DNA of 64,000 nt, from NCBI RefSeq assembly GCF_000337735.1, contig NZ_AOHX01000039.1, positions 312,472 through 376,471 on the forward strand, in the 5' to 3' direction. This stretch comes from Natronorubrum sulfidifaciens JCM 14089. GTDB lineage: Archaea; Halobacteriota; Halobacteria; Halobacteriales; Natrialbaceae. Positions 5,034 through 29,929 of this stretch are shown here, one piece after another; the stretch's first letter is position 1, and each line of letters opens with the position of its first letter. The notes beneath the pieces are model-generated. The model was not told the DNA's origin, did no database searches, and worked only from the letters and a program-made list of their open reading frames with translations. The position numbers and the translations under genes were made by a program.

Positions 5034-5057
5034 GGTTTATTCGAGGTATAGTAAACC
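5034..5057 (+). promoter_or_regulatory. Shared glycan-locus promoter element, copy A
   Basis: Read in the plus direction the site is GGTTTAT, 5 nt, then GTATAGTAA and ACC. It fits the pattern TTTAY-N5-CKATARTAA found before other genes of this locus, and its outer hexamers (GGTTTA and TAAACC) form an exact inverted repeat spaced by 12 nt. It lies 106 nt before the nucleotide-sugar dehydrogenase start, implying a leader of roughly 80 nt. Confidence 0.5.
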
Positions 5058-5163
5058 CACCACACGGAGTTGGCCGGATTGAGGACTACCCGTGAGTTGC
5101 GGACGGCATCGGACCGGAGCCACCGTCGCACTCGTGTGACGGTCCAGTGACACCGAATCAGCC

Positions 5164-6561
5164 ATGACCACGACAATCAGCAACACCGAAAAGCGAGCGA
5201 GCGACCGAGCGACCGATCAGTACTCACTGCAGACGGGTGACGACGGAACAACCCTCCAGCATACCGAGCAACCGCTTCGGGAGGCAACGATCTGTGTCGT
5301 CGGACTCGGCTACGTCGGACTCCCGCTTGCAGTCGGGTTTGCACAGTCGAACTACCGCGTCGTCGGCTACGACATCGACGAATCGACAGTCGACCAGCTC
5401 CAATCGGGCGTCGACACGACCGGCGATCTCTCCGATGACGCGATTCAGGACGGCGATATCTCCTACACAACCGACGCGAGCCAGATCAGCGATGCAGACT
5501 ACATCATCATCGCCGTCCCGACGCCGATCGATGAGGACAACCGACCCGACCTCAGCTACATCGAAAGCGCGGCGACCACCGTCGGCTCGAAGATGAACCC
5601 CGGGAGCACAGTTATCCTCGAGTCGACCGTCTACCCCGGCTCGACGCGTGACGTCCTCGTCCCGGCACTCGAGGACGCATCCGACCTCACCGCAGGCGAG
5701 GACTTCTTCGTCGGCTACTCGCCCGAGCGCGCAACGCCCGGCGACGACGCACACGGCCTCGCAGACGTCGTCAAGGTCGTCAGTGGACAGAACGAAAAGG
5801 TGCTCGATGACGTGGCGACGCTGTACGAGTCGGTCGTCGACGCAGGCGTCCACCGAGCCCCATCGATCGAGGTCGCCGAAGCCTGCAAGGTCGTTGAGAA
5901 CACCCAGCGAGACCTCAACATCGCGTTCGTCAACGAACTTTCGATGGCACTCGAGCGTCTGGATGTCGACGGACAGGCGGTCCTCGAGGCCGCGGGCACG
6001 AAGTGGAACTTCCACGATTACCGACCGGGTCTGGTCGGTGGCCACTGCATTCCCGTCGATCCGTACTTTTTCACCTACCGGTCGGCTCAGGAAGGGTTCG
6101 AACCGGAACTCATGCAGATGAGTCGAAAGGTAAACGAGTCGGTACCCGACCACGTCGCCGAACTGACGATCAAGGCGCTCAACGAGTGTCACAAGACGCT
6201 TCGCGAGAGTCGGGTGCTGGTGCTTGGGCTGGCTTATAAACCCGGCGTCGGCGACGTTCGAAGCTCGAAGGTCGAAGCCGTCATCGACACCCTTCAGGAG
6301 TACGAAATCGACATCGAAGGCTTCGATCCGTTCGTCGACGACGAGACGATCGAGGACCGCTTCGGAATCCACGCTCAACAGCGACTCTCGTTCGAGGGGA
6401 TCGACGCCATCATGCTCGCGACTCCGCACGAGGAGTTCGAGGGACTGGATCTCGAGGCCGTGTCGACTGAACTCGCCGAGAATCCCGCACTGATCGACGT
6501 CACTGGCACACTCGAGGAAGCCACAGCCACCGACGCGGGGTTTGTCTACCGCCGGTTATGA
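5164..6561 (+). CDS. UDP-sugar 6-dehydrogenase (WecC/AglM family)
   Basis: This enzyme oxidises C6 of a nucleotide sugar to a uronic acid with two NAD+. The Rossmann motif G-L-G-Y-V-G-L-P begins near residue 46. The central domain has K-V-V-E-N-T-Q-R-D, and the active-site cysteine lies in G-G-H-C-I-P-V-D-P-Y (Cys295). The C-terminal UDP-binding domain contains L-A-Y-K-P-G-V-x-D-V-R-x-S. Length (465 aa) is usual, with about 40 extra acidic N-terminal residues. The H-C-I-P-V-D-P-Y form is typical of the UDP-ManNAc/UDP-GlcNAc dehydrogenase branch, but UDP-glucose dehydrogenases (AglM) cannot be excluded. It is first in a plus-strand run of four glycan genes. Confidence 0.93.
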   Translation: MTTTISNTEKRASDRATDQYSLQTGDDGTTLQHTEQPLREATICVVGLGYVGLPLAVGFAQSNYRVVGYDIDESTVDQLQSGVDTTGDLSDDAIQDGDISYTTDASQISDADYIIIAVPTPIDEDNRPDLSYIESAATTVGSKMNPGSTVILESTVYPGSTRDVLVPALEDASDLTAGEDFFVGYSPERATPGDDAHGLADVVKVVSGQNEKVLDDVATLYESVVDAGVHRAPSIEVAEACKVVENTQRDLNIAFVNELSMALERLDVDGQAVLEAAGTKWNFHDYRPGLVGGHCIPVDPYFFTYRSAQEGFEPELMQMSRKVNESVPDHVAELTIKALNECHKTLRESRVLVLGLAYKPGVGDVRSSKVEAVIDTLQEYEIDIEGFDPFVDDETIEDRFGIHAQQRLSFEGIDAIMLATPHEEFEGLDLEAVSTELAENPALIDVTGTLEEATATDAGFVYRRL

Positions 6562-6670
6562 GCCCTCGGAGTCACCCCGCCGACAGCGGAGCCGAATCGG
6601 CGACGCGGCGCATGCTGTCGGCTGCCGTCGCCGGTCGACACGGGACGCACATCATGGAGGTGGCGTGACG

Positions 6671-7744
6671 ATGCGAGTCGTGGTGACGATCCAACATCCC
6701 GGCCACGTCCACTTCTTTCGCCATCCCATCGCGGAGTTGCGCGCCCGTGGCCACGAGGTCCACGTCTTCGCCCGCGAGAGTGACGTGGCGATCGCACTCT
6801 TAGAGGCGTACGACATCGACCACGAGGTACTGGCCGGCGAGTCGGACTCGCTGCTCTCGCTGGCGGCCGTACAGGCGACCTACGAGATGCGACTGCTGGC
6901 CCGGGCGCGACGGATCAAGCCGGACGTGATCACGGCGATCGGTGGCGTCGCCGCTGCCCACGTGGCGTCGGTGCTGGGCACGAAGAGCGTCGTGTTCTAC
7001 GACACCGAACACGCGACGCTCATCACGAAACTCGCCTACCCGTTCGCGGACGTAATCTGTACGCCATCGTGTTACCGCGGCGAGATCGGCCCGGCCCAGC
7101 GGACGTATCCGGGGTATCACGAACTCGCCTATCTCCACCCCGACCGCTTCGAGCCTGATCCGACAGTCCTCGAGGACGTCGGGCTCGAGCCCGACGACCG
7201 GTTCGCTCTCGTCCGACTCAGCAGTTGGGAAGCCTCACACGACGTCGGCCACGGCGGGTTCGACGACCCACGCGAGGTCATCGATCGGCTCGAGGCCGCG
7301 GGCTGTTCGGTCCTGCTGACCGTGGAAGGCGAGCCCCCAGCCGACCTCGCATCCTACCAGTTTCGGACGTCGCCGGAGCGAATGCACGACCTGCTCGCCG
7401 TCGCCGACGTGGTCGTCAGTGAAGGGGCAACGACCGCCGCCGAGGCAGCGGTGCTCGGGACGCCGGCGATCTACGTGAATCCAGCGTCGCTCGGCTACAC
7501 GGCTGAACTCGAGGCCGAGTACGGGCTGTTGTTCGGGTTCAACGGCTCGGATCGCCACACGCGCGCACTCGAGAAAACGAGCGCAGTTCTCGAGGCGCCC
7601 GCCGAGACGTGGACACGGCGGCGCAAGCGCCTGCTCGAGGATCGGATCGACGTGACGGCATTCGTCGTCCGACAACTCGAGACGGTCACGGAGCCACAGG
7701 CGTCGAACCGATCACCATCCGCAACCAACCCGAGCGAATCATGA
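6671..7744 (+). CDS. DUF354 family glycosyltransferase-like protein
   Basis: The 357-residue protein starts M-R-V-V-V-T-I-Q-H-P-G-H-V-H-F-F-R-H-P-I, the signature N-terminus of DUF354, a GT-B fold family related to UDP-GlcNAc 2-epimerases and MurG-like transferases. A second-domain nucleotide-sugar loop is visible as S-E-G-A-T-T-A-A-E-A-A-V-L-G-T-P-A-I-Y-V. An upstream in-frame ATG would add a basic, non-conserved tail, so the start was placed at the conserved MRVVV. Its stop overlaps the next gene in an ATGA junction, indicating translational coupling. Substrate is unknown. Confidence 0.85.
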   Translation: MRVVVTIQHPGHVHFFRHPIAELRARGHEVHVFARESDVAIALLEAYDIDHEVLAGESDSLLSLAAVQATYEMRLLARARRIKPDVITAIGGVAAAHVASVLGTKSVVFYDTEHATLITKLAYPFADVICTPSCYRGEIGPAQRTYPGYHELAYLHPDRFEPDPTVLEDVGLEPDDRFALVRLSSWEASHDVGHGGFDDPREVIDRLEAAGCSVLLTVEGEPPADLASYQFRTSPERMHDLLAVADVVVSEGATTAAEAAVLGTPAIYVNPASLGYTAELEAEYGLLFGFNGSDRHTRALEKTSAVLEAPAETWTRRRKRLLEDRIDVTAFVVRQLETVTEPQASNRSPSATNPSES

Positions 7745-8703
7745 AGGTCCTCCAGTTGGTTACTTCCCCGCGGCCGTTTTTCGACCAGCAGGTGTCGGCA
7801 CTCGAGGCGCGTGGCGTCGACTGTACCGTCTGTAGCGTCCCCGGCGCACACCGCGGCGATTCGACCCGCTCGCCGACGGACTACCTGCGGTTTTACCCGA
7901 AGATCCTCTCGGAACTTCGCTCCGGTGAGTACGATCTGGTCCACGCGAACTACGGGCTCGTCGCGCCGTTCGCTCTCGCACAGCCGATTCGGCCAGTGAT
8001 CCTGACCCTGTGGGGAACGGACCTGATGAGCGAGCAGTCGTGGCTGCGCTCGCTCAGCCAACACAGCGCCCGCCACGCGACCGCGACGGTTGTTCCCACC
8101 CGAACGATGGCACGCACACTCGAGGCCGACCACGAACTCATTCCGTTCGGCGTCGACACGGAGCTCTTTCGACCGATGCCCAAAGCGGCGGCCCGGGACC
8201 GTATTGGCTGGGACACCGATCGACCGATCGCGCTCTTTCCGTACGACTCCAGCCGTGGCGTGAAAGATTACGCTCGCGCTCGTCGGCTCGTCGACCGGGC
8301 CGACATCGACCTCGAACTCCGTACGGTCACCGGGGTCGACCATGATAAAATACCCGCCTATATGAACGCAAGCGATGTTCTGCTCGTTACCTCAAAGCGA
8401 GAGAGTGGGCCGATGGTTGTCAAAGAAGCCGCCGCATGTAGCCTTCCGGTCGTCTCGACCGACGTTGGATTCGTCCGCGAGACTGTCGGAGACGTGCACA
8501 ACTGCGTCGTCAGCGACGACGACGACGCGTTGATCGACGGCCTCGAGGCCGTCATCGAATCGGACAGCAGAGCTAACGGCTGCGACACGATCGATGGACT
8601 CGGCATCGAGGCGCTGGGCGAGAGCCTTCACGGGCTGTATCGTCGCGTCCTCGGTCGAGACGAGCCGACGAGTCGCCGAACGGAGGCCGGCCATGGGATA
8701 TAA
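7741..8703 (+). CDS. Glycosyltransferase family 4 (GT-B)
   Basis: The 320-residue GT4-type enzyme has an N-terminal acceptor domain starting M-K-V-L-Q-L-V-T and a D-L-V-H-A-N-Y-G strand. The C-terminal donor domain contains P-F-G-V-D-T-E-L-F-R-P, then the E-x7-E-like motif region R-E-S-G-P-M-V-V-K-E-A-A-A-C-S-L-P-V-V-S. It likely adds a sugar to the growing glycan at the cytoplasmic membrane face. The ATG lies inside the preceding stop (ATGA) and the end overlaps the following membrane gene, so the four genes form an operon. The donor sugar cannot be read from sequence. Confidence 0.9.
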   Translation: MKVLQLVTSPRPFFDQQVSALEARGVDCTVCSVPGAHRGDSTRSPTDYLRFYPKILSELRSGEYDLVHANYGLVAPFALAQPIRPVILTLWGTDLMSEQSWLRSLSQHSARHATATVVPTRTMARTLEADHELIPFGVDTELFRPMPKAAARDRIGWDTDRPIALFPYDSSRGVKDYARARRLVDRADIDLELRTVTGVDHDKIPAYMNASDVLLVTSKRESGPMVVKEAAACSLPVVSTDVGFVRETVGDVHNCVVSDDDDALIDGLEAVIESDSRANGCDTIDGLGIEALGESLHGLYRRVLGRDEPTSRRTEAGHGI

Positions 8704-10672
8704 ATCGATCTCGGAACTTCGTCCGTTCCGGCTCGACACCGTCGCGGCGATCGCCGGTCTCCTGATCGCACTGGCACTGCTCCCACTGCGGTTTTTCGCG
8801 TCACAGCTGTATCTCAACACCGTTCCAATCGTCCTTGGGACTGCGTGTCTGCTATATCTCATCGGCCTCTATCACCGGGAGAACGCATCGACGATTCCGA
8901 CGCTGCCATCGCCCGTCTCGATGGCGCTTCCGGCTGCCGTGCTCACCGGGCTTTCAGCCTTGGTGGTCCTGACGACAGTTCAGGGGACACGGACCGCGCT
9001 CTTTTTCGGGCTGGCGAGCGTCGTCGGGACGCTCATCGTCGGCCAGATCGTGTTCACGAGCGACCGGGATTTCAACCCGGGGCTCCTCCTGTTTCAGATC
9101 GTCCTCTTTGCGGTCGTCTTCCGGTTTACCGCGCTGTATGCGACGACGGGGTACGTCGGTATCGACGTCTGGACCCATGCGGAGCTCACACACGCGATCC
9201 TCGAGGAGCGGTCCGTCGCCGGGATTTCCGACGACAAACACTACGCCTCCCCGTTTTACCATCTGCTGGTCGCCGCCTCCTCGCTGCTCTACGATGTCCC
9301 GTTTCGCGTCGCATTGTACCTCTCCGTCGGGATCGTGATGCCACTCTCGGTGTTGCTCGTCTACGCGACCACGAACCTCCTCGTCTCACAGCGATGGGCA
9401 ACGCTGGCGACGGCGCTTTTTGCGTTTGCGAGCCACGTCTCGATGTGGGGGCTTCATCTGATCCCAACGAGTCTGGGGCTGGTCTTCTTCCTCGGCATGG
9501 TGTATGCGTTGATCCGAGTGATGCGAATCGAGTACACCGTGCGTGACTTCTCGTTGCTGTTGTTGATGAGCGTCGCCGTCATCCTCACCCACCAGGTGTC
9601 GACGTTCATCATGCTCGTATTGTTACTCGCAGCGTTTCTCGCACAGCTCGTCTTCGAGGTCGGGCCACTCGGACTGACGCGGTTCGACACGAGCGTCTTC
9701 CGGGCCAAAAAGCCGGTCAACCTCGTCGGGCTCGTTGCTTTCAACATCGGGCTGACGATCTTCGTCTGGTCGCTGACACCCTATCGTCAGCAGTCGTTTC
9801 TCGCGACCGTCCTGAGCTACTTCAGCCAGACCCTCGAGGAAAGTGCCGGCTTCCTCAACATCGCAAGCGATACCTCGGCCGAGACAGCCGACGCGGGTGC
9901 CGAGGCGGCACCGACACTCCTCGAGCAAGTCGTTCCCTACGTCGACGCCCTTGGCTTCCTGTTCTTGCTCGGCGCGACGTTCGTCGGCTGTCTGTACGTC
10001 GTTCACAGGCGACGGGCCGAACAGTCCGTGTTCACGCTCTTGTTGGCCGCGGCGTTCATGCTGGTGTTCGTCCTCGGGTTGCCGATGTTCGGGATCAGAA
10101 ACTTCATTCCGACTCGCTGGTTTGCGTTCCTGTTTGCACCGATGGCGATCCTCGGTGCGATCGGGCTTCGAACGCTCAGTCAGAGCCTCAAGCCCGGGGT
10201 CGTCGTCTCCGTCCTCCTGTTGTTCGTGCTCATCTATCCGGGTGCGATGATCTTCGCGGTCGAGAGCAACGTCGACAACCCGGTCTTTGACGAACAACAC
10301 GAACGGCTCGCTTACGACGAATCGGAACTCGCTGCCGTCGAGTCGATCGGTGCCATGACCGGCTCGCCGAGCGGTCAGGAGATCCGTCCGGATCAGCAAC
10401 TCCACACTGATCATCCGTACCAGACGGTGTTCAGTCGGACGGGCGCGTATCCGTCGACGACGACAGCGACGGTGCCCGACGGGGGTGTCGCCGAGCACGA
10501 TTACGTCGTCTATCGGTCGGCACAGTCGACCAGTGCGACGTACTTCAGCGACGCCGACGGAAGTGGCCGGATCGAACAGGTCACCCAGTCACGGCTCTGT
10601 GGGCCGGCACAGGCCACCCTCTACACGAACGGTGACGTGACGATGTGTGCGGCTTCGCCGGCCTCTCGGTGA
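8693..10672 (+). CDS. Multispanning GT-C-like membrane glycosyltransferase
   Basis: This 659-residue integral membrane protein has roughly 12-14 hydrophobic segments and a C-terminal soluble region of about 110 residues. The first large loop contains Y-V-G-I-D-V-W-T-H-A-E-L-T-H, an acidic/His-rich motif at the place where GT-C enzymes carry their catalytic Asp. A loop with H-Y-A-S-P-F-Y-H-L-L follows. The layout resembles archaeal DUF2206/PMT-like proteins that use polyprenyl-phosphate sugars. It overlaps the GT4 gene by 11 bp. A polymerase role for the repeat unit is an alternative. Confidence 0.7.
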   Translation: MGYKSISELRPFRLDTVAAIAGLLIALALLPLRFFASQLYLNTVPIVLGTACLLYLIGLYHRENASTIPTLPSPVSMALPAAVLTGLSALVVLTTVQGTRTALFFGLASVVGTLIVGQIVFTSDRDFNPGLLLFQIVLFAVVFRFTALYATTGYVGIDVWTHAELTHAILEERSVAGISDDKHYASPFYHLLVAASSLLYDVPFRVALYLSVGIVMPLSVLLVYATTNLLVSQRWATLATALFAFASHVSMWGLHLIPTSLGLVFFLGMVYALIRVMRIEYTVRDFSLLLLMSVAVILTHQVSTFIMLVLLLAAFLAQLVFEVGPLGLTRFDTSVFRAKKPVNLVGLVAFNIGLTIFVWSLTPYRQQSFLATVLSYFSQTLEESAGFLNIASDTSAETADAGAEAAPTLLEQVVPYVDALGFLFLLGATFVGCLYVVHRRRAEQSVFTLLLAAAFMLVFVLGLPMFGIRNFIPTRWFAFLFAPMAILGAIGLRTLSQSLKPGVVVSVLLLFVLIYPGAMIFAVESNVDNPVFDEQHERLAYDESELAAVESIGAMTGSPSGQEIRPDQQLHTDHPYQTVFSRTGAYPSTTTATVPDGGVAEHDYVVYRSAQSTSATYFSDADGSGRIEQVTQSRLCGPAQATLYTNGDVTMCAASPASR

Positions 10673-11101
10673 CGGATTCGGCGGGCTGCCAGCGGCGGTT
10701 GCTCACGTTGGATATCCACTCAGAGGGCTGTTGTTCCGAGTTCTCGCCGATTGCCAGCCACGGATCGGTGACCGGCAGTCACTGACGACGACACTCCTTC
10801 TCAGCAACTCACTGGTTCTCGAATGGGTGGTCACATGGTCTCGTTCACGCGCCACAGTGTCCACCACTGAGCGTGTCTCTTAGAGCCATCAACTGACGAT
10901 GTCGGTCGCCGTTCGAACCACGACTCGAGGACAGATCCTGAAGGCGTGTTCGATCCGTCAGTAGCCATCTTCCACCGACCGTTCGGATCTCCGTTCTCGA
11001 GTGAACTCCACTGGACAACGGCTACCAGTCACAGCTCGATCATCATCGACCCCACCGAACCAGTCCGCCTCGAGGATCGATCGACGCTGGGACACCGACA
11101 G
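10673..11101. other. Intergenic region between convergent genes, nothing supported
   Basis: About 430 bp of GC-rich sequence lies between the ends of two convergent genes. No frame shows a known domain, a start with a promoter, or consistent haloarchaeal codon bias on either strand. No clear stem-loop terminator or repeat was recognised. Confidence 0.4.
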
Positions 11102-12091
11102 CTACTCGAGTTCGATCGGGAGCTGAACCGTCCGATACGCGTTCTCGGCCGTTGGCGATGCTGGCGGCTCACCGTCGTAGAGCAACAGCGTCAGCCGAAA
11201 CTCCTCGCCGTCCATCGACGGTGTGATCTCGAGTGTCTGCTGCTGTGTGTCGCCGTCGTCGACGGTCGCCGACTGCCGGGTGAGTTCTGCCGTTTCGTGG
11301 ACGGTCACGTCGTCACCGTCGTAGCTTACCCGCTCGAGCAAGACGACGGTCGTGTAGGTTCGCTCGTCGTGTTCACGGTTGGTGATCGTGGCCTGTAGCT
11401 CCTGGGGTTCTCCAGCGGTGTACGACGACTCGTACATGGTTTCGGTCTCGCCAGTGACGGGTTCGGTATCGACCGCAAACTCGGTGAACCCGTCGTGTTG
11501 TGGTGGGTTCGCGATCGCAAAGCCGCCGCTCGCAACGAGGAGGAGCAACCCAATCACGATCGCCACGTTGTACGGCCGCGTGCTCGTCTGGTCGTACGCG
11601 GTGGGTCGTCGCTGGGTGAAGAACACGGCCTCGAGAGAGAGCGCAGGCGTAAACCGTTGGGCCGGTGGACACCGATAGCGAGATCCGATCGCGATCAGTG
11701 ACAGCACGACGGTCGTCACCGCGATTCCAGACAACACGGTTTCGAGCATCAAACCCCCTGGGGTCACGGACGTCAGAAGGGCAATCGCCGAGACGAGTGC
11801 AACGCTAAAAACCGTTGACAGGACGAATCGCTCAACCGTCTCCAACCCGCCGGTTACCAGCAGTGGATTTCCGAGTCCTGTTTTCTCTTCGTCGAACGAC
11901 TGATAGTCGTCGTTCGGCCGATCCGGAAACATGGCTGAAACGAGCGCATACCCGGGGAAAAAGAGGAGTAGCGGAATCAGCAACAAAATCCTTGCAGGTC
12001 CATCGATGCCAGAAAATACCCCGAGCGTGAGTGCGCCAGTGACCACGATGACGACTGCGAGGTCTGAGAACCACCAGTGAGTATCGCTCAT
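11102..12091 (-). CDS. DUF1616 membrane protein
   Basis: The 329-residue protein has an N-terminal half with about four transmembrane helices. The loop L-L-L-F-F-P-G-Y-A-L-V-S-A-M-F-P is the conserved DUF1616 signature. A fifth helix (about residues 178-198) leads to an exported C-terminal beta-rich domain of about 120 residues. That domain has T-N-R-E-H-D-E-R-T-Y-T-T-V-V-L and a regular strand pattern, resembling the CARDB-like domain of this family. DUF1616 proteins are recurrent in archaeal surface-glycan loci; their biochemical role is unknown. A strong promoter element sits 24 nt before the ATG, so the transcript is probably leaderless. Confidence 0.85.
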   Translation of the reverse strand: MSDTHWWFSDLAVVIVVTGALTLGVFSGIDGPARILLLIPLLLFFPGYALVSAMFPDRPNDDYQSFDEEKTGLGNPLLVTGGLETVERFVLSTVFSVALVSAIALLTSVTPGGLMLETVLSGIAVTTVVLSLIAIGSRYRCPPAQRFTPALSLEAVFFTQRRPTAYDQTSTRPYNVAIVIGLLLLVASGGFAIANPPQHDGFTEFAVDTEPVTGETETMYESSYTAGEPQELQATITNREHDERTYTTVVLLERVSYDGDDVTVHETAELTRQSATVDDGDTQQQTLEITPSMDGEEFRLTLLLYDGEPPASPTAENAYRTVQLPIELE

Positions 12092-12115
12092 ATTTCCGAG
12101 ACTCGGTGTGGCGAT

Positions 12116-12139
12116 GGTTTATTATCGCCCAAGTAAGCC
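12116..12139 (-). promoter_or_regulatory. Shared glycan-locus promoter element, copy B
   Basis: In the transcription direction the site reads GGCTTAC, 5 nt, CGATAATAA, ACC. The TATA-like core ends about 26 nt before the DUF1616 ATG, the position expected for a leaderless archaeal transcript. The outer hexamers form an imperfect inverted repeat. Confidence 0.65.
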
Positions 12140-12479
12140 CCGTCCGACCGGGTCGATATGACGTCCGTCAGACGGAGACCTATAATTCTCTCGAGAGCTA
12201 TTCTGACCGGCCTTCGTCGGACGGCTTTGAACAGTTGTAGAAACAGAAACAGTCGTAAATTGGGTAGAAGATTGGCGAATATATTCTACCAAATCTAGCG
12301 AAATAAATACGGGGCGAATATCTGGATATACCTGTAATAACCACTGAGGCCTGTGTTATAGTGGTTTTGAAAAACTATGAAGAGCGAATCCGATCGCTGA
12401 AAATACTGAAAGTATAATTCAGCAGAATGTACGGATCAAATCCTTTATTACCCACTTCTGATTAGGGAGGATCGGTGCG
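12140..12479. other. AT-rich divergent regulatory region
   Basis: This stretch is markedly AT-richer than its surroundings, especially 12230-12470, and carries no ORF of note. It lies between divergent genes. A TATA-like CTTTATTACC at about 12441-12450 fits as promoter of the plus-strand winged-helix gene. Low GC in a haloarchaeal chromosome often marks acquired DNA or a regulatory island. Confidence 0.5.
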
Positions 12480-13067
12480 ATGAAATCGACATATATCAGC
12501 TCAGAACAACAGGGTGAGGCAGATTCGAGCGGTGAATCAGCGTGTGCTGCCGAAGAGCCTGCGTTCTCGAAAGACGAAATCTTCCATCTCCTGCAAAACG
12601 AACGTCGTCGGCTGGTTCTTCGATACCTCCGTGATACGGACGGCCCGGTTCGCATGCGTGATATTGCAGAGCAGGTCGCTGCGTGGGAACACGAGACGAC
12701 TGTCGAGGCGCTCACATCGACACAGCGCCAGCGAGTCTACATCCCCCTCTACCAGTCACACCTCTCGAAGCTCGACAAGGCCGGGATTATCGATTATCAG
12801 CAAAACCGTGGTATCGTCGTTCGAAAACCGCTTGCTGACCAGATCGATCAGTATCTCCAGATAGAGCCGTCCGTCGACTCGACGGACAAAGCGGAGTCGG
12901 GCACGGACTGGGACGATTACTATATCAGCGCGACAGTCCTCTGTTATGTCGTCCTGATCGGCGCCGTGATCGAACTGCCGTTTCTCTCGTTGCTCTCCGG
13001 GATCGCGCTGAGCGCGTCGATTCTCCTCCTGTTTACTGTGTTGACTATCAGCCGTCTTCTCAACTGA
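12480..13067 (+). CDS. DUF7344 winged-helix protein with two C-terminal membrane helices
   Basis: This 195-residue protein carries the haloarchaeal DUF7344 winged helix at about residues 35-115: I-F-H-L-L-Q-N-E-R-R-R-L-V-L-R-Y-L, then I-A-E-Q-V-A-A-W-E, then Y-I-P-L-Y-Q-S-H-L-S-K-L-D-K-A-G-I-I-D-Y. After a short acidic linker come two hydrophobic segments, about residues 148-165 and 170-190. Members are taken to be DNA-binding regulators, here tethered to the membrane. It converges with a second DUF7344 gene, only 89 bp apart. A GGGAGG ribosome-binding-like stretch lies shortly before the ATG. Confidence 0.85.
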   Translation: MKSTYISSEQQGEADSSGESACAAEEPAFSKDEIFHLLQNERRRLVLRYLRDTDGPVRMRDIAEQVAAWEHETTVEALTSTQRQRVYIPLYQSHLSKLDKAGIIDYQQNRGIVVRKPLADQIDQYLQIEPSVDSTDKAESGTDWDDYYISATVLCYVVLIGAVIELPFLSLLSGIALSASILLLFTVLTISRLLN

Positions 13068-13156
13068 GCGCGGCTAGCGCGTAATTTCTGCGGGCTACTG
13101 TCACGATCACGGACATCGGGATCAATAATTGAGGGCCGTGACGACGACAATCCGTA

Positions 13157-13693
13157 TTAGAGCGTGATCGACGGAATCGAAACCATCCCTGTGACGATCG
13201 CGAGTGCCAACACGGCCACCGCCGCAAGCGCGATCAGTGTCGCAAGCACAACCGAGACCGTCCGCAACGAAGACCACGGCATGGCCGATGGCAGCCGCGA
13301 CTCCGTGCTCGCATAGGATGTCTGACACTCGATCATCCCTTGGCTCCTGTCGAACTCGATGTATCCCGATGTGTCGAGTTCCGGGAGCCGATCCTGATGG
13401 AGTTTCTCGTGTACGGTCGCCCAGGTGTCGATGGAGGGCTGTGCGGGCCGTATCAGTTGATCGGTAACTTCATCGACAGTCGTCGGCGTTCCCATCTCGT
13501 CGAGAACACCGACCAGCGCGGCATCCGACTCGGGAATGAACTCCAGCGCACGCTCTGTTACTTCGTCTGTCTCGGCGAGTTCGTTCGGTGGAGAGTAATA
13601 GATAGTCACCCCCGACGTGGTGTCTGCATCTCCCGGTCGCTCTTCTGGAGCACTGTCCGCTGAAGAGCGCAACCAAGACGGTGTCAGACGCAT
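13157..13693 (-). CDS. DUF7344-like winged-helix protein with one C-terminal membrane helix
   Basis: This 178-residue regulator-like protein has a degenerate DUF7344 winged helix: L-E-F-I-P-E-S-D-A-A-L-V-G-V-L, then V-D-E-V-T-D-Q-L, and a wing with L-D-T-S-G-Y-I-E-F-D. A membrane segment near the end is rich in Val/Ala/Leu (V-V-L-A-T-L-I-A-L-A-A-V-A-V-L). The start was placed at M-R-L-T-P-S-W because a TATA box lies about 27 nt upstream of it; a farther ATG overlaps the promoter. It is the convergent partner of the preceding gene. Its target is unknown. Confidence 0.75.
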   Translation of the reverse strand: MRLTPSWLRSSADSAPEERPGDADTTSGVTIYYSPPNELAETDEVTERALEFIPESDAALVGVLDEMGTPTTVDEVTDQLIRPAQPSIDTWATVHEKLHQDRLPELDTSGYIEFDRSQGMIECQTSYASTESRLPSAMPWSSLRTVSVVLATLIALAAVAVLALAIVTGMVSIPSITL

Positions 13694-13713
13694 ATTCCAC
13701 GCTAAAACCCATT

Positions 13714-13723
13714 GGTATATAAG
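13714..13723 (-). promoter_or_regulatory. TATA box of the DUF7344-like gene
   Basis: On the minus strand the sequence CTTATATACC lies about 27 nt before the chosen ATG, matching a leaderless haloarchaeal promoter. It differs from the shared glycan-locus element and lacks the upstream TTTAY block. Confidence 0.6.
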
Positions 13724-13863
13724 TATTCTCACGGTTCCACGATTACGGAAGAACTATCTCCTTCTTAGAGTGTTTCATTCCAGCATTTCATGCGATTCTA
13801 CAGAGAACTATGTGTTAATAGCCTGTTAGCTATCAACTATTGTTACTCTTCTCGGATGTGGTA

Positions 13864-15555: not shown

Positions 15556-15652
15556 CGTCGAAGATCACCGTACACGATCGAGAAGTGCGCTGTCGACCGA
15601 AGCCAACAGCGCACCCGCATACGCGCAACTGGTCTTCTCTCTGATCGTGTCG

Positions 15653-15676
15653 CCATTAACTATGCCACCGTTAAGC
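15653..15676 (-). promoter_or_regulatory. Possible shared promoter element, copy G (weaker)
   Basis: In the minus direction the site reads GCTTAAC, 5 nt, CATAGTTAA, TGG, a partial match to the shared pattern. It lies about 97 nt before the asparagine-synthase-like gene, so a leader would be needed. The match is weaker than the others. Confidence 0.3.
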
Positions 15677-15770
15677 GCTCAGTCGGCCGGCGAACGCTGC
15701 TGTGAGCGACGCCGTTGCACGACTATCAAATCCATAATAATGGTCGCGCTGCCGAGAGTGTCGGCTACCA

Positions 15771-18287: not shown

Positions 18288-18309
18288 GAGTACCCATGCC
18301 AGCGTGAGT

Positions 18310-18333
18310 GTCTTAGTTACGGATAGGTAAAGA
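18310..18333 (-). promoter_or_regulatory. Shared glycan-locus promoter element, copy F
   Basis: In the minus direction the site reads TCTTTAC, 5 nt, CGTAACTAA, GAC. Its near end is 22 nt from the ATP-grasp ATG, the same spacing as at other genes of the locus. The core is less TATA-like than in copies B and C. Confidence 0.5.
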
Positions 18334-18463
18334 CCGTTTCAAACACGAACAGGGTGACGACACGCCGATTCTCGAGGGGGCTGCCGGCGTTCGTCGGATA
18401 CCGCCAGTCGTCCAAGGTGTCGGCCACAACGTCCGCACACCGAGGGATGACGGCTGTGCCCGA

Positions 18464-19459: not shown

Positions 19460-19483
19460 TTGCCGGAGCTACCCGTCGCCACC

Positions 19484-19507
19484 GCATTATTATCGAGTGG
19501 GTAAACC
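19484..19507 (-). promoter_or_regulatory. Shared glycan-locus promoter element, copy C
   Basis: In the minus direction the site reads GGTTTAC, 5 nt, CGATAATAA, TGC, the best consensus match. The spacing to the GT2 ATG equals that of copy B to its gene. Being in a divergent region it might also influence the plus-strand lipoprotein gene. Confidence 0.65.
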
Positions 19508-19642
19508 CGACACGGCAGTCGTGTGAGTGGTCTCCGCCGTTGGGCACACGGTTCCAGCGCCCTCGAGCGGGCTGGCGCTGGCCGGCGAGTTGTGCGTCTA
19601 ACGACTCTATAAGAAAGGATAGCTGGATCATTGACGGCGGCA

Positions 19643-21954: not shown

Positions 21955-22117
21955 CGACGCCGTCCACGACGCATCGTTTGCAATCACGCCTCCGGCGTCT
22001 CCGTTTCTTATGGATGCTCGAGCGACGTGTTGACCGTCTTTCTCAGGTGAGTCAGCCGAGACACTCTCGGTTCGCAGTTCGACTGTCAAGCAGACGGCGC
22101 GAGGCGGCTGTCACGAG

Positions 22118-23740: not shown

Positions 23741-23915
23741 GGTCTCCCCCCGGACATGCCGCGTCGACCGCCCGGTGTCGACGGTCGGCTGGACTGTCGA
23801 CGATGTCGATATCCCGCCTGCCAACCGTCCGGGCGGTCGACACACGCCCCTGACCGCACTACGACAGTATCAGTATCCGACACACTCACGATAGCACAAC
23901 GCTGGCACTGGCGAG

Positions 23916-23939
23916 GCCTTATTATACGGAGGATAAACG
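23916..23939 (-). promoter_or_regulatory. Shared glycan-locus promoter element, copy D
   Basis: In the minus direction the site reads CGTTTAT, 5 nt, GTATAATAA, GGC. It precedes the flippase gene with a leader of either about 45 nt or about 150 nt, depending on the start codon used. Confidence 0.5.
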
Positions 23940-23982
23940 GCCGACGTCGCGGTTGAGACGTGCTGTTGTGCGAGACCGCGAC

Positions 23983-25629
23983 TCAGTACGTGTTCTCCCA
24001 GGTCGTGACGCCGTCCGCACCGAGGTCACGGATGCCGCGGTCCAGATGGTTCTTTTTGAACGTCGGGTTCTCGGCACTGCTGTAGAGGCAGACGGCTTCG
24101 CTGTTCGTCGTCGACTTGAGGACCGAATCTCTCACGAGCGAGTTGGTGCCGAGGTCGACGTAGGGGTACTGGCTGGCTCGCAGTTCGCTGTTATAGACCG
24201 TCACGTCGTCGGCCATGTTGACGATGGCGTTTCGGTCGACACCGTCGCGACCGAGCTGGGAGATGTCGACGTGGCTAAAACGACAGTTGTCCCGTTCACA
24301 GCGAATGCCGTCGCGGAAACCGCTGGCGTCACCCGCTCGACCGGAGATGGTGAGGTGTTCAGCGAGCACCTGCTCGGTTCGGTCGCTGTTTCGAATCCAC
24401 AGCGGATACCCGCCATCGGTTTCGTGGGTGATCTCCGTGTCGACGATCGTCGTCGCGCCACACTCCGGCGAGAGGACGATCCCGTGGTTGACGGCCGAGC
24501 CGTGGAGTCGAACGTGAACGTTGTCGATTCGGGCACTCTCACACGAGTTCATCACCGAAATCGCGTGACTGGTTGGTTTGGGCGAGGCGTTCTCGACCGC
24601 CGCACCGTAGATCTCGAAGTCACGACCGTTTTCGATCCGAATCCCACGCTGGGAGCGGTCGTCGGGCCGCGTGTCGTCGATTTCGACGGTCGGCCACCGG
24701 ATCTCGCTTCCCTGACCGCCGACTCGGATGTTCGCGCCGTTGCTGTTTTTGTAGTAGCCACCGTGAACGACGATCTTTCCGTCGCCACCGGCCGCATAGA
24801 GGCCGTTGTTCGGGAACGCACCGAGCGCACAGCGCCTGAACTCGAGTGTTCCGCTGTTCTGGTTCGCCTCGATTCCGATGGGGCCACGCCAGCGGTTGCC
24901 GGCGTTCGGGGTGTTGTTGACCCACGCGGCGCCACCCGGTGCCCGGAACCGTTCGACGATCCCCCAGCCGTCTGCGGACGTGATGTTGAACAGTCCAGGC
25001 CCCCACGTCCCGCTGTCGTGTTGGCCGCGGATGATGATGTCTCGAACCTCGAGTCGATCTGAGACGTACGTTTCGATCGTTCGAATCCCCGTCTCCGGGG
25101 CTGTCTGATCGACGTCGAATCCCTCGAACCGGAGCCGTCGACCGGGGCGATAGGAGACGCCGAGGCGAAACAGTCGATACTGCGGACCGTCGAACTCGTG
25201 GTAGTTCGCCGGGACCAACGTCGCGTTCTGGCCGACCATTCCGAAGTTGTCGAACCCGGTGAATCTGAACTGCTCGTCCATATAGTACCGCCCTTCGGGA
25301 AAGACAAGCAGTGTATCGTCTGCCCGTAACTCATCGAGAACGGGCGTGATCGGTTCGGTACCGGTGTTGTCCGCGCCGGCCTCGACGACGTCGATGACGG
25401 TCCCGTAATCGTCGTAGTACTGTCCGAACGGGTCCGACGCGCCACTGGCAGTCGACGTCAGTCCAAGCGCCGCGGCACCGACGGCCGTAACACCCTGTAA
25501 AAACGTTCGCCGTGATCGGCGTGAATTAGGTCGGTCCTCAAGCAACGATCGTTCGTTCGAATCATCAAATGACTGAGAATGAGGAGACCCTCCACGGTCC
25601 GAATTTCGCATCCCACTTCGTTCCGACAT
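23983..25629 (-). CDS. Tat-exported right-handed beta-helix protein (pectate-lyase-like fold)
   Basis: The 548-residue precursor has a long N-region and a Tat signal (S-R-R-S-R-R-T-F-L-Q-G-V-T, then an Ala/Gly hydrophobic core and A-S-G-A cleavage region at about residue 64). The mature part opens with D-V-V-E-A-G-A-D-N-T-G-T, a classic pectate-lyase-3-like start. It continues with many I-x-I/V-x-N repeats: I-E-A-N-Q-N-S-G-T-L-E-F-R-R-C, I-S-V-M-N-S-C-E-S-A-R-I-D-N-V-H-V. It is predicted to bind or cleave an acidic glycan, perhaps the polymer made by this locus; no catalytic residues can be assigned. A start 18 bp downstream is also possible. Confidence 0.82.
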   Translation of the reverse strand: MSERSGMRNSDRGGSPHSQSFDDSNERSLLEDRPNSRRSRRTFLQGVTAVGAAALGLTSTASGASDPFGQYYDDYGTVIDVVEAGADNTGTEPITPVLDELRADDTLLVFPEGRYYMDEQFRFTGFDNFGMVGQNATLVPANYHEFDGPQYRLFRLGVSYRPGRRLRFEGFDVDQTAPETGIRTIETYVSDRLEVRDIIIRGQHDSGTWGPGLFNITSADGWGIVERFRAPGGAAWVNNTPNAGNRWRGPIGIEANQNSGTLEFRRCALGAFPNNGLYAAGGDGKIVVHGGYYKNSNGANIRVGGQGSEIRWPTVEIDDTRPDDRSQRGIRIENGRDFEIYGAAVENASPKPTSHAISVMNSCESARIDNVHVRLHGSAVNHGIVLSPECGATTIVDTEITHETDGGYPLWIRNSDRTEQVLAEHLTISGRAGDASGFRDGIRCERDNCRFSHVDISQLGRDGVDRNAIVNMADDVTVYNSELRASQYPYVDLGTNSLVRDSVLKSTTNSEAVCLYSSAENPTFKKNHLDRGIRDLGADGVTTWENTY

Positions 25630-25877
25630 TGATAGTCATTTCAGTATGAGTAATGAGACGGTTCAGTAACTATGGGTTCGGATAGCAACTTTTTAAGTTC
25701 GAGTCGCGAACTCGGCTGTCAGCGTAGATATTTGTGTTTCGATATGATCAACGATATTACAGCGTGCAATCGGCCTCACTCGCCTCGAGATTGGGCGATG
25801 ATTCCACTTTCACAGGTAGCGTTTAACAGTCACGTAAGCTATAATAACCACTGAAAGTCGAGGTACATCTCGGAGGG
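25630..25877. other. AT-rich intergenic region
   Basis: About 250 bp, AT-rich, lies between two genes on the minus strand. It should hold the promoter of the beta-helix gene. Runs such as CTTTTTAAG near 25689 lie on the correct side, but no element could be fixed by spacing. No ORF is supported. Confidence 0.4.
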
Positions 25878-26540
25878 TCACTCGTAGTCAGTTGGCGTTC
25901 GGTCGTTTTCGATCGTGCCGGCGATCAGATCCGAGATGGCACGGCGAAGTCGCTGTGAGACCGCCGAATCGGAGATCTCGAACTGGTCTGCGAGGTCGTC
26001 CTGTGTACACTCCCGTGGAACGTCGAAGTAGCCAGCGTAGTACGCCAGTGTGAGAATTTCGTACTGCTGTTCGGAGAGTACGTACGTGCCCTCATCGGAG
26101 ACCGACGAATCATACAGCTGACTCACGCGAAACGAGATCCCGTAGCTTCGACAGCACGATCGGAACGCGGCGAGCGCATCACGATCCGGGAGATGAACGC
26201 GTGCAACCCACCCACCGGTGGTGCTCGTAACGGTAAAGACGAACAGGTCACCCTCAGTACAGCGGTCCGGAATAATTTCGATGTCGGTCTCGGTCGTCAC
26301 GCGGTAGATCACCCGGTTTTCAAAGGTTGCGACGCGCGTCGGGTTCGAAATCGTGTGGTCCGCCTCCATCGCCCCCTCAAGTGCGGCGTAGTCGTCGCCG
26401 AAAGCCGAAATAAATTGGGTGTCCCGTCCGCCGGTCGGTGTGGTGTACTCATATCTGAGCGTCGTATCCGGGTGGCGCTTGATCGTCGGTACCAACACCA
26501 GATCGTCGTGAGAGAGGTGAATTTCAGCGATAAATCCCAT
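25878..26540 (-). CDS. Bat-type helix-turn-helix regulator (HTH_10)
   Basis: The 220-residue protein has a C-terminal HTH_10 (bacterio-opsin-activator) domain: Y-V-L-S-E-Q-Q-Y-E-I-L-T-L-A-Y-Y-A-G-Y-F-D-V-P-R, then D-L-A-D-Q-F-E-I-S-D-S-A-V-S-Q-R-L-R-R-A. The N-terminal 150 residues are an alpha/beta sensor-like region of the kind preceding HTH_10 in many haloarchaeal regulators (M-G-F-I-A-E-I-H-L-S-H-D-D-L-V-L). The ligand is unknown. It sits between the glycan phosphodiesterase and beta-helix genes and may regulate them. A TATA-like GATAAATAAGG lies about 40 nt before the ATG. Confidence 0.87.
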   Translation of the reverse strand: MGFIAEIHLSHDDLVLVPTIKRHPDTTLRYEYTTPTGGRDTQFISAFGDDYAALEGAMEADHTISNPTRVATFENRVIYRVTTETDIEIIPDRCTEGDLFVFTVTSTTGGWVARVHLPDRDALAAFRSCCRSYGISFRVSQLYDSSVSDEGTYVLSEQQYEILTLAYYAGYFDVPRECTQDDLADQFEISDSAVSQRLRRAISDLIAGTIENDRTPTDYE

Positions 26541-26639
26541 AGAGATGTTGTAACGTCTGTACTGTCGAATTCAGGGGCCTTATTTATCGAAGCCGTATCC
26601 GACACTTGCAGCAGCTGAAATCGTCCGTCTCGGCGCGGT

Positions 26640-28325
26640 TCAGTTCAGATAGCCGAGATCCGCCAACCGATCCGTCACCGCTTCGTCCGGCGCCGTCTGG
26701 TCGTGCCCATCCGGGTTGTCGTAGGCTGGATATGACATCGAATCGATGTCGTCGACGATCGGGACGACGGTCCCGTCCATGCGGTCGCTGACCGGCACCC
26801 CCATCGCAGCCATGACCGTCGGTGCAACGTCGAACAGATGGACGTGCTCGAGCGACTGCGCTTCGTCGATCCCCTCGCCCAGCGCAACGAAGACGCCGTC
26901 GAGTTTGTGGTTCCACGGCTCGACCGGGCCGAAGTACTCGCCGTCGCCGAGTTGCTCGGAGAGGGCGTGCTCGAACCCGTTGGGAATCGTCACGATATCG
27001 ACGGCGTCGTCGACGTGGTCGCCGTGGAAGTACCGCTCGCGGGGGGCGACCGTCTCGAAGAACGGCTCTCCGTCGGGCGTCTCGATTCCCTGAAGCGTCC
27101 GGATGAGGTCTTCGCGGACCTCATCGTACTCCTCGGGCGGAACGACGCCCTCGGGATCTCGGCCCTCGAGGTTGATCCGGACCCCGAGTTCGGTTCGAGC
27201 ACGGACGTACGCCGTCGATGCAGCGAAATCGACCTGCTCGTTCGCCGTCCGAGAGACACCGCCCGGTGCGTACTTCTTTGCGACCTCCGCGAGACCGACC
27301 TGCTCGAGGGCGATCCTGAGTCGACGAGCGGTGATCCCGAACCGCGCCGCGACTGCGGCGAGGCGGGCGGCCGTTCCGGGCTCCCACGTGTCGTACTCTT
27401 CGCCTTCGCGGAGTCGCCGTCGCATCGGCGTCCACGACGGCATCCCCTTCCCACCCGTCGTCGTCTCGATGTAGCCCTCGTCGCGGAGGAACTCGTTGAG
27501 TCGGAACTCGTAGCCGTCGTACGGCCCCATGCCGTGGTCGCTGACGAGGAAGATCCGGTCGGGGTCGTGTGCCTCGAGGATCGTGGCGATCTGTTCGTCG
27601 GTCGCCTCGTAGACCGCCTCGACCATCGCCTCGTCGCCGTCGAACTCGTGAAACACCGTGTCGGTCTTCTGGAACTGGACGAAACCGAGATCCGGTTCGA
27701 ACTCGTCGACGAGATACCGGAACGCCTCGCCACGCATCCCAACGAGTCGCCGATACTCCGCGATCTTTTCGGCGTCGGTGACCGAGTCGTCGTCGCGGGT
27801 GTAGTTGGGATAGATACGGTAGTCGCCGATCGCCTCCCGAACGTCGTCGAGCAGCCCCGAGGGGTGACAGCTGGGGTCCTCAGGGCCGAGAAAACCGGGA
27901 ATCACCGCGCCGTCGAACTCGTCGGGTGGATACGTGACGGGGGCGTTGACGACGACGCTCGAGCGACCGTGTCGGTCCAGTAACGTCCACAGCGGATGTT
28001 CGCGAACGTCGTCGTTGCTCGTGACGTGCCAGTCGTAGCCGTCGTAGCCGACGAAGCCGATCGTCCCGTGTTTGCCGGGGTTGACTCCAGTGTAGATCGA
28101 CGGCCACGCACTCGGCGTCCACGGCGGGATCTGTGACTCGAGCGGGGCCGTCACGCCCTCCGAACAAAGGCGCTCGATGGTCGGGATGCGATCGTCTTCG
28201 AACAGTCGCTCGAAGACCGGCAGACAGCCCGCGTCGATGCCGATCACCAGCGTCTCCAGCCCGCTCGAGTCGCTCGCGGTAGTCGTCGTCGATGCCTCGT
28301 CGTCACGGTCGAAGGTCCCACTCAT
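26640..28325 (-). CDS. Type I phosphodiesterase/nucleotide pyrophosphatase superfamily enzyme
   Basis: The 561-residue protein belongs to the alkaline-phosphatase superfamily. Metal-binding Asp31 lies in V-I-G-I-D-A-G. The nucleophile region is P-P-W-T-P-S-A-W-P-S-I-Y-T-G (Thr70 or Ser72), and further ligands lie in F-L-V-S-D-H-G-M-G and the C-terminal H-L-F-D-V-A-P-T-V region. Archaeal glycan loci often carry such enzymes; hydrolysis or transfer of phosphate-linked groups on a nucleotide sugar or lipid carrier is likely but unproven. The N-terminus has about 20 low-complexity residues and no clear signal, suggesting a cytoplasmic enzyme. Confidence 0.85.
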   Translation of the reverse strand: MSGTFDRDDEASTTTTASDSSGLETLVIGIDAGCLPVFERLFEDDRIPTIERLCSEGVTAPLESQIPPWTPSAWPSIYTGVNPGKHGTIGFVGYDGYDWHVTSNDDVREHPLWTLLDRHGRSSVVVNAPVTYPPDEFDGAVIPGFLGPEDPSCHPSGLLDDVREAIGDYRIYPNYTRDDDSVTDAEKIAEYRRLVGMRGEAFRYLVDEFEPDLGFVQFQKTDTVFHEFDGDEAMVEAVYEATDEQIATILEAHDPDRIFLVSDHGMGPYDGYEFRLNEFLRDEGYIETTTGGKGMPSWTPMRRRLREGEEYDTWEPGTAARLAAVAARFGITARRLRIALEQVGLAEVAKKYAPGGVSRTANEQVDFAASTAYVRARTELGVRINLEGRDPEGVVPPEEYDEVREDLIRTLQGIETPDGEPFFETVAPRERYFHGDHVDDAVDIVTIPNGFEHALSEQLGDGEYFGPVEPWNHKLDGVFVALGEGIDEAQSLEHVHLFDVAPTVMAAMGVPVSDRMDGTVVPIVDDIDSMSYPAYDNPDGHDQTAPDEAVTDRLADLGYLN

Positions 28326-28437
28326 CGTTCCATTGGTCTCGTGTTGACTCCTGTCTTCGGTCGACCGCTACCGGGCTTTCCGGTAGCGACGTCGGTCGAT
28401 ACCGCACGTGATCTACCCGAAGTGGGGCCGACGAGAC

Positions 28438-28461
28438 ACTTCATTATCGGTTCGCTAAAAC
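28438..28461 (-). promoter_or_regulatory. Shared glycan-locus promoter element, copy E
   Basis: In the minus direction the site reads GTTTTAG, 5 nt, CGATAATGA, AGT. It lies about 112 nt before the phosphodiesterase ATG. A second overlapping candidate with outer hexamers GGTTCG and TAAACC, again 12 nt apart, occupies 28449-28472. Confidence 0.4.
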
Positions 28462-28557
28462 GGCTGTAAACCCGAAAATCGGGCATCTGACGGACTCGTG
28501 TCTAGATCGACACATCCCGCCTCGGTACCGCGAGGCCCGACGCCTGTTCGCCGTGGG

Positions 28558-29883
28558 TCACGTGTCCGCTTCGATCGCGTGCTCGAGGATCGCCACGGCA
28601 TCGGCTGCTAACTCCTCGGCTCGCGACTCGGTTCGGGCCTCCGCCGTCACTCGAACGATCGGCTGGGTTCCGCTGGCTCGCACGAGCATCCAGCCGTCGT
28701 CGACAGCGATGGAGACCCCATCGAGCGTCTCGACGTCGTCGTAGCGTTCGTGGACGTGCTCACGAACGCGGTCCATCACCGCGGCTTTCGCTTCGACCTC
28801 GAGTGCCGTTCGCCGGATCGGATACGTCTCGATGTCGGCGACGAGTTCAGAGAGCGGCCCGCGTTCGGCGGCGAGTTCGACGAGTGTACACGCCGCGAGC
28901 GGGCCGTCCGGACAGAGCGTCTCTGTCGGCCAAATCCACGCCCCGCTTGGCTCGCCGCCGAAGACGACGTCCGGCCGTTTCGCTTCCTCGGCGACGAACA
29001 CGTCGCCAACCGGCGTTCGCGTGACCGACGCTCCAACCGCTGCGAGCGTGTCGTCGACGGTCATGCTCGTCCCGACGGGTGCGGCGACGACGTCGCCATC
29101 GCCCGCGGCCTCGCGTGCGAACAGCGCGAACAGCACGTCCTTGGGAACGAACGCGCCAGTCTCGTCGACGGCCATCATCCGGTCGGCGTCGCCGTCGTGG
29201 GCGATTCCGAGGTCGGTGGCCGTCGATTCGACCAGCGACGAGAGGCCGGCGAGCGTCTCTCGAGTCGGCTCGCTCGGTCGGCCCGGGAAACTCCCGTCCT
29301 GTTGGCCGTTCAGCGTGACGACGTCACACCCCAACGCAGCCAGCACGCGGGCGGTGATCCCGCCAGTTCCGTTGCCGACGTCGACGACGACACTCGGCGG
29401 ATCGTCGATCGACACCGCGTCGGTCAGTTCGCTGGCATGGTGTGCTAACACACCGTCGAGTGACTCGAGTGCGCCCTGTTCGTTCCAGGGTTTGAGGTCG
29501 TACGCCTCACGGTCGATCCGTGTCGCGATCGCCTCGCGCTGGTCGGGACCAAAGGCTTTGCCCGACGCCGTCCAGAGTTTGATCCCGTTGTCCGGCGCAG
29601 GGTTGTGCGAGGCCGTGATGACGACTCCCGCATCCGCGTCCGTCCACGGAACGGCTCTCGCAATCGTCGGCGTTGGCGCGACGCCAACCGTGACGACATC
29701 CGTTCCACACTCCCGTACGCCGGCGATCAATGCCTCAGCGAGGATCGTCCCACTCTCTCGAGCATCCCGTCCAACCACAACGCGCTCGTAGCCCTCGGAG
29801 GCGACCGCCCGCCCCACGGCGAGTGCGAGGTCGGCTGTCACATCGTCTCCAACTGGGCCTCGGATTCCGCTCGTTCCGAACAT
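28558..29883 (-). CDS. glmM: Phosphoglucosamine mutase / phosphohexomutase
   Basis: The 441-residue enzyme converts glucosamine-6-phosphate to the 1-phosphate, the step after GlmS. Motifs are F-G-T-S-G-I-R-G at the N-terminus, the catalytic serine loop T-A-S-H-N-P, the Mg-binding D-G-D-A-D-R, the sugar-binding G-G-E-P-S-G-A, and the phosphate-binding R-A-S-G-T-Q-P near the end. Archaeal members can also act on glucose or mannose phosphates, so specificity is inferred partly from the presence of glmS nearby. A copy of the shared promoter element lies 22 nt before the ATG, tying precursor supply to the glycan genes. Confidence 0.92.
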   Translation of the reverse strand: MFGTSGIRGPVGDDVTADLALAVGRAVASEGYERVVVGRDARESGTILAEALIAGVRECGTDVVTVGVAPTPTIARAVPWTDADAGVVITASHNPAPDNGIKLWTASGKAFGPDQREAIATRIDREAYDLKPWNEQGALESLDGVLAHHASELTDAVSIDDPPSVVVDVGNGTGGITARVLAALGCDVVTLNGQQDGSFPGRPSEPTRETLAGLSSLVESTATDLGIAHDGDADRMMAVDETGAFVPKDVLFALFAREAAGDGDVVAAPVGTSMTVDDTLAAVGASVTRTPVGDVFVAEEAKRPDVVFGGEPSGAWIWPTETLCPDGPLAACTLVELAAERGPLSELVADIETYPIRRTALEVEAKAAVMDRVREHVHERYDDVETLDGVSIAVDDGWMLVRASGTQPIVRVTAEARTESRAEELAADAVAILEHAIEADT

Positions 29884-29905
29884 ACCTGTCCCCTCGAGGA
29901 AACGG

Positions 29906-29929
29906 GGATTACTATAGGGCCGCTAACGA
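29906..29929 (-). promoter_or_regulatory. Shared glycan-locus promoter element, copy I (glmM)
   Basis: In the minus direction the site reads TCGTTAG, 5 nt, CTATAGTAA, TCC. The near end is 22 nt from the glmM ATG, as for the ATP-grasp gene, and close to the 24 nt of copies B and C. Confidence 0.6.

Follow-up and report, generated by a model that had tools for sequence, protein, structure and literature searches.

How archaea time the building of their surface polysaccharides is little known, and a glycan locus of Natronorubrum sulfidifaciens JCM 14089 raises the question in a concrete form: what places its genes under common control? The locus lies in a stretch of 64,000 nucleotides (contig NZ_AOHX01000039.1, positions 312,472 to 376,471), which is called here the window and to which all coordinates refer. 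A previous reading made from the sequence alone had listed eight sites in it that combine a TTTAY block, 5 nt and a TATA-like CKATARTAA, and had proposed a core promoter with a fixed upstream block, served by a shared activator that is perhaps encoded in the locus. All eight sites exist in the sequence. The results presented below suggest that this element may serve as the common promoter of a surface-glycan regulon in haloarchaea, and they point to a membrane-anchored DUF7344 protein as its likely switch.

Locus specificity of the element

The cleaned pattern is the 19-mer BTTABN5SKATARTAA, i.e. [CGT]TTA[CGT]-N5-[CG][GT]ATA[AG]TAA; the first block is real, and its description as TTTAY was too narrow. 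The original pattern, TTTAYN5CKATARTAA, has 17 matches in the window at up to three mismatches, compared with 3.0 expected, and none of 100 shuffles reached 17. Since that pattern had been derived from these very sites, the fair tests are the genome-wide and comparative ones. The counts for the 3.46-Mb source genome were obtained by pattern searches and from sampled stretches. At up to one mismatch the original pattern matches five times in the genome, four of these in the glycan locus. The cleaned pattern has six exact copies in the whole genome, and all of them are found at 3731-29927, a 26-kb part of the glycan locus; its reversed control has none, and the chance of six independent matches falling in such a span is near 1e-9 by a rough calculation. 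One of the six is the strict site of glmS (3731-3749), which was absent from the earlier pattern set and had been overlooked, while the listed sites of the ATP-grasp and Asn-synthase-like genes are weak. The control set comprised 156 genes, drawn from the right half of the window and from 360 kb of other genome regions. In none of them does SKATARTAA occur in the 120 nt upstream, and none matches the full pattern at up to two mismatches, the closest match having three. The pattern is thus not equally common before unrelated genes, and the element is enriched, relative to the genome background, before functionally linked glycan genes, as is expected for the cis element of a regulon. Several two-mismatch matches outside the locus have a CTATAGTAACAACTGAA-type sequence in common and resemble a background repeat.

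The targets in the window are the genes for glmS, UDP-glucose dehydrogenase (UGDH), a DUF1616 protein, a GT2 glycosyltransferase, a flippase (Polysacc_synt), a type I phosphodiesterase-family protein and glmM. Their predicted functions are precursor supply (amino-sugar and uronic-acid), transfer and export.

Spacing and promoter anatomy

The distance between the two blocks is fixed. In the window locus, BTTAB precedes six of the seven SKATARTAA boxes by exactly 5 nt, and no box has it at a spacing of 0-4 or 6-34 nt; in ten loci of the genus the block stands at 5 nt before 47 of 63 boxes, with zero cases at other spacings from 0 to 28. A family-wide scan allowing N0-12 placed 73 of the 150 matches listed at N5 and about six at each other spacing. 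The remaining anatomy was read from 88 sites of other genera and families, in which the motif columns were fixed by selection and the downstream columns played no part in it. These unselected columns are enriched as WAG at 35-37, W35-A36 being the -10 element, and are initiator-like at 45-48 (Y45-R46-A47); the start codon follows most often 26-28 nt after the motif. The presence of a -10 element and an initiator in unselected columns indicates that the element is a core promoter, with the TTA near -45. Judged from these alignments, the TATA-like box, the -10 WW and the initiator occupy haloarchaeal positions, the box lying in the range of about 25-34 nt ahead of the start that is usual for (near-)leaderless genes.

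The published haloarchaeal promoter consensus consists of a B recognition element (BRE) CGAAA, a TATA box TTWT and a -10 WW (PMC4983044). The element resembles this generic core promoter in the usual places of its TATA-like box, -10 WW and initiator, and differs from it in the lack of the BRE consensus, in a TATA box of the form ATARTAA and in the added TTA block at a fixed 5 nt. The consensus CGAAA is absent upstream of the TATA box in the 88 sites, whose positions 7-12 are GC-rich, with A at 0-19%. With such a spacer and no BRE, the core promoter is expected to be weak by itself.

The proposal of a core promoter with a fixed, glycan-locus-specific upstream block is supported by the -10 and initiator signals, the N5 spacing and the conservation described below, while several details of the sequence-only reading changed. 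The site was said to end 22-24 nt before the ATG; the measured distance is 25-27 nt (DUF1616 27, ATP-grasp 25, GT2 27, glmM 25). Leaderless transcripts fit the short gap at some genes and are not the general case, about half of the strict sites having long leaders. The outer hexamers were said to form often an inverted repeat, GGTTTA-N12-TAAACC, which would make a palindromic operator for a homodimer. Of 135 sites, 3 have this repeat in exact form, and its paired positions are complementary at chance level, hence it is not a part of the motif.

Conservation in the genus, family and order

The motif is found in front of the same genes in nine other Natronorubrum genomes. Among the ten congeners, column identity amounts to 0.80-1.00 for the TTA block and 0.94-1.00 for the TATA part, compared with 0.60-0.96 for the spacer and 0.41-0.57 for the flanks, so that the two blocks are kept at orthologs while the flanking DNA has diverged. 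Exact matches are present in 108 of 121 genomes of the same family, often clustered. In the order, motif clusters occur in at least five other families (f4, f5, f6, f14 and f17), at homologous loci, and most other genomes are without them. Twenty-three regions from 22 such genomes were mapped, and glmS, UGDH, DUF1616, glycosyltransferase and flippase genes stand there again under motif promoters; these regions were picked for having matches, which limits them to gene context and says nothing of frequency.

The DUF7344 protein as candidate regulator

A shared regulator encoded in the locus remains the best explanation of these observations. The locus encodes four DNA-binding candidates: a DUF7343 protein, a DUF7344 protein, a degenerate DUF7344-like transmembrane (TM) protein and an HTH_10/BAT protein. 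From the candidates named earlier, at 4147, 12480, 13157 and 25878, the evidence favours the one at 12480, i.e. the DUF7344 winged-helix protein (12480-13067, +). It scores 104.3 bits against DUF7344 (PF24035; curated cut-off 27.8), and the Pfam scan gave nothing else above cut-off. Hydropathy and a structure model give an N-terminal winged helix followed by two C-terminal TM helices, the predicted winged helix covering residues 31-120 with a model confidence (pLDDT) >90.

An alignment of DUF7344-TM proteins was searched in 146 genomes of the order, matches at E<1e-62 being regarded as strong. All 38 genomes with a strong DUF7344 contain at least two exact copies of the motif (mean 5.5, reversed control 0.55). 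Haloferax gibbonsii and H. larsenii (loci L213 and L204) are examples in which the motif stands close to a strong DUF7344. The remaining 108 genomes have a mean of 0.42 copies against 0.52 for the reversed control, which is background. Within a single genus (g45), five species have both the protein and the motif, and in nine a strong DUF7344 is absent and the motif occurs once at most. The structural gene at 8594 was used to separate the regulator from the locus. Its homolog is present in 49 genomes; the 38 of them with a strong DUF7344 all have at least two motif copies, and the 11 without it have 0-1, with the caveat that the 8594 homologs of those 11 are mostly more distant. Moreover, three genomes of genus g48 have a second, orphan DUF7344 far from the glycan locus. 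Each of these orphans sits behind a gene for a small membrane protein, the promoter of which has the motif with 0-1 mismatch. The presence of the motif in genomes that carry a membrane-anchored DUF7344 makes this protein the likely switch.

Several observations speak against this assignment. The E<1e-62 cut-off was picked after the scores had been seen, though the contrast persists within genus g45. Several strong DUF7344 copies elsewhere (G194 C1, G211 C1, G216 C2 and C4, G149 C5, and G010) are without a motif within ~8 kb. Since the locus moves as a unit, co-occurrence with the motif extends to DUF7343 and other members. A fold search with the DUF7344 model against solved winged helices was weak, with a best E of 0.02, and a sequence search against solved structures gave no match. 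Finally, the promoter of the DUF7344 gene itself is without the motif: its conserved element CCTTTATTACCCACTTCTG (12442-12460, +) has no TTA-N5 block. A CCTTTATTACCCACTTCTG-like element is also found at the DUF7344 gene in genus g48 (L146, L147, L148), preceded there by repeated GAAAC.

Taking both sides together, we hold with moderate confidence that a membrane-tethered winged-helix one-component regulator, most likely DUF7344, would bind the TTA block and recruit transcription factor B (TFB) and the TATA-binding protein (TBP) at a surface-glycan regulon. In this scheme ATARTAA would be the TATA box, about -34 to -28 from the predicted start, and BTTAB the regulator contact, about -46 to -42, just beyond the TFB site. 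DUF7344 bound at the TTA beside TFB and TBP would recruit both to a promoter that lacks a BRE, and through its membrane tether a signal from the membrane or envelope may govern glycan synthesis. The regulator is probably an activator rather than a repressor.

Alternative explanations

The unlikely alternative that survives best is that DUF7343 (4147-4812, -), a winged-helix protein with an N-terminal TM helix, reads the TTA block, alone or as a heteromer with DUF7344, in which case the extracellular Ca-binding-type repeats that it has in other families would sense the envelope or Ca2+. Almost every motif-bearing locus has a DUF7343-TM homolog, in many cases next to DUF7344, and the DUF7343 winged helix is of the MarR/Csa3 type. 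Such a homolog is absent, however, from the 38-kb main locus of genome G194 and from beside the three orphan DUF7344 units with a motif in genus g48, and within the genus DUF7343 is less conserved than DUF7344 (49-71% vs 70-89% identity). DUF7343 may instead be a plausible sensor partner of DUF7344. Its homologs in other families (L126, L128, L132, L143 and other far loci) read as having a signal peptide and, on the outer side of the membrane, DxDxDG repeats of TSP3/EF-hand-like type, linked by a single TM helix to the cytoplasmic winged helix. These far-family homologs are a candidate transmembrane Ca2+ sensor-regulator.

A rather improbable alternative makes the element a repressor operator lying over the TATA box, with the bound regulator blocking TBP and TFB. 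The conserved bases do cover the TATA box itself, and the UGDH site at 5036 is a perfect inverted repeat. The palindrome is, however, as rare among the 135 sites as stated above, and a one-sided upstream block at a fixed distance, together with a spacer without the CGAAA BRE, fits recruitment better than repression.

It is quite improbable that the element is an extended core promoter recognised by a specialised TFB or TBP paralog, with no need for a separate regulator. TFBs are numerous in haloarchaea, and genus g54 has a TFB paralog no more than ~2 kb from a DUF7344-TM gene (G216 C5:293056-295648; G201 C6:16294-18484). TFB genes are nevertheless present in 145 of 146 genomes and do not follow the motif in their distribution, those without a motif cluster can match the carriers in copies (27 domain matches in G163, 25 in G233), and the TTA block is outside the normal TFB contact. 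The search, which covered TFB, gave by copy number no support to a dedicated TFB.

It is very improbable that the HTH_10/Bat-like protein (25878-26540) is the regulator, acting like Bat at the Halobacterium bop promoter, where the regulator site is directly upstream of the TATA region. Its gene belongs to the locus and is itself preceded by a variant site. However, hardly any close homologs occur near the motif except in the same family, and most motif-bearing loci elsewhere are without it, so it was rejected as a general regulator; unlike Bat at bop, this Bat-like gene shows no link to the motif in other families. The candidate at 13157 likewise has no counterpart in most motif-bearing loci outside the family.

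An ordinary core promoter, with a TTA match due to chance or to descent from duplicated promoters, is hardly credible, since the shared descent of orthologous promoters, the commonness of TATA-like boxes and one unrelated conserved promoter (GTTATGCNGTCTATAGTAA) that also matches the pattern are set against the fixed spacing, the locus specificity, the conservation amid diverged flanks and the absence from all control genes. A conserved match outside the locus, [AG]TTATGCNGTCTATAGTAA (G000 C2:71787 and other genera), precedes a small conserved CxxC protein; as it occurs also in genomes without a strong DUF7344, it was taken as unrelated to the regulon. In several genera of the family (L002, L084, L103, L104, L105), [AG]TTATGNNGTCTATAGTAA stands ~25 nt before the small CxxC protein (MSTEPTD.KWTPMTS..CVNCGNQVTRQFARVFGD), a promoter that fits the motif and is independent of DUF7344.

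Individual sites and leaders in the window

The strict sites are those of glmS (CTTATTCGTGGTATAGTAA, 3731-3749, -), UGDH (5036-5054, +, with a 109-nt leader), DUF1616 (12119-12137, -), GT2 (19487-19505, -), flippase (23919-23937, -) and glmM (29909-29927, -). The first two are present in 10 of 10 genus genomes searched, as is the DUF1616 site with 0-1 mismatch. The phosphodiesterase gene has a one-mismatch site (..ATAATGA; 28441-28459, -), kept in G001, G002, G005 and G008. Of the weak sites, the one before the ATP-grasp gene (18313-18331, -) is without the TTA block in relatives, and the other, CTTAACGGTGGCATAGTTAA (15656-15675, -), precedes the Asn-synthase-like gene. Variant sites, which share the register of the strict ones and are weaker, are located before the genes for a polysaccharide deacetylase (ACTATCAAATCCATAATAA, 15722-15740, +, 30 nt from the ATG), the DUF7343 regulator (ATATGCGAATCCATAATGA, 4903-4921, -), a beta-helix protein (CTATCCGAACCCATAGTTA, 25667-25685, -) and the HTH_10/Bat-like protein (GATACGGCTTCGATAAATA, 26581-26599, -). 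The first three of them are kept in the genus, and a relative has GTTAC-N5-CTATAAGTA at the fourth. For the site at 25829 (+) there is no matching gene.

The gap from the 19-mer to the start codon is 73-218 nt at the glmS, UGDH, flippase and phosphodiesterase genes. The longest leader, ~218 nt before glmS (glutamine-fructose-6-phosphate transaminase, 1704-3514, -), occupies 3512-3749 (-) and is kept in the genus. It contains a hairpin, GACCCG..CGGGTC (3669-3701), followed by a 48-codon open reading frame (3658-3512), the stop of which runs into the start of glmS (TAATG); this frame is possibly a leader peptide or a small coupled gene. Hairpins also occur in the UGDH leader (CCGTCGCACTCGTGTGACGG, 5123-5142, +) and in the phosphodiesterase leader (GCTACCGGAAAGCCCGGTAGC, 28367-28387, -), from which it follows that the non-leaderless members of the regulon may have structured leaders.

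Relation to known systems and significance

The closest parallel in architecture is offered by ArnR and ArnR1 of Sulfolobus acidocaldarius, membrane-bound one-component activators of the archaellum, which have an N-terminal HTH and two C-terminal TM helices and bind boxes upstream of the BRE/TATA of surface-structure genes (PMC6396743). The likeness proposed is one of architecture, and there are differences: the boxes of ArnR are 15 bp long and lie between -84 and -43, and the protein carries putative HAMP and sensor domains, in contrast to the 3-5 bp block at about -45, the DUF7344 winged helix and the glycan genes considered here. In mode of action the proposed regulator would resemble EarA of Methanococcus and Pyrococcus, summarised in PMC13286277 as a winged-helix activator bound just upstream of the promoter; a BRE mutation bypasses EarA, which suggests TFB recruitment. 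The EarA target is the archaellum operon, with another motif and another protein family. CsmR of Haloferax volcanii is also a haloarchaeal winged-helix protein that controls surface structures through a motif adjoining the TATA box; it differs in its semi-palindromic motif, TATCA-N4-TGATA, and in being a small protein of 13 kDa. The literature searched, which is incomplete, contained no paper on this motif or on the function of DUF7344 or DUF7343, and neither family has an assigned function in the libraries and literature searched. The kind of system, a membrane-bound one-component regulator, is known, while its family, code and regulon appear to be new.

Summarizing, the clusters found across the order are consistent with a broader and somewhat more tentative reading, in which a patchy, order-wide surface-glycan regulon would be controlled by the DUF7344 family, perhaps paired with DUF7343 sensors carrying extracellular Ca-binding-type repeats, through a TTA-N5-TATA code in promoters without a BRE. 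Such a motif would allow regulon members to be predicted from the sequence of haloarchaeal genomes and points to one testable regulator, and it would present a clean case of an archaeal regulator that acts next to a core promoter, at a set distance from it, where the usual BRE is lacking.

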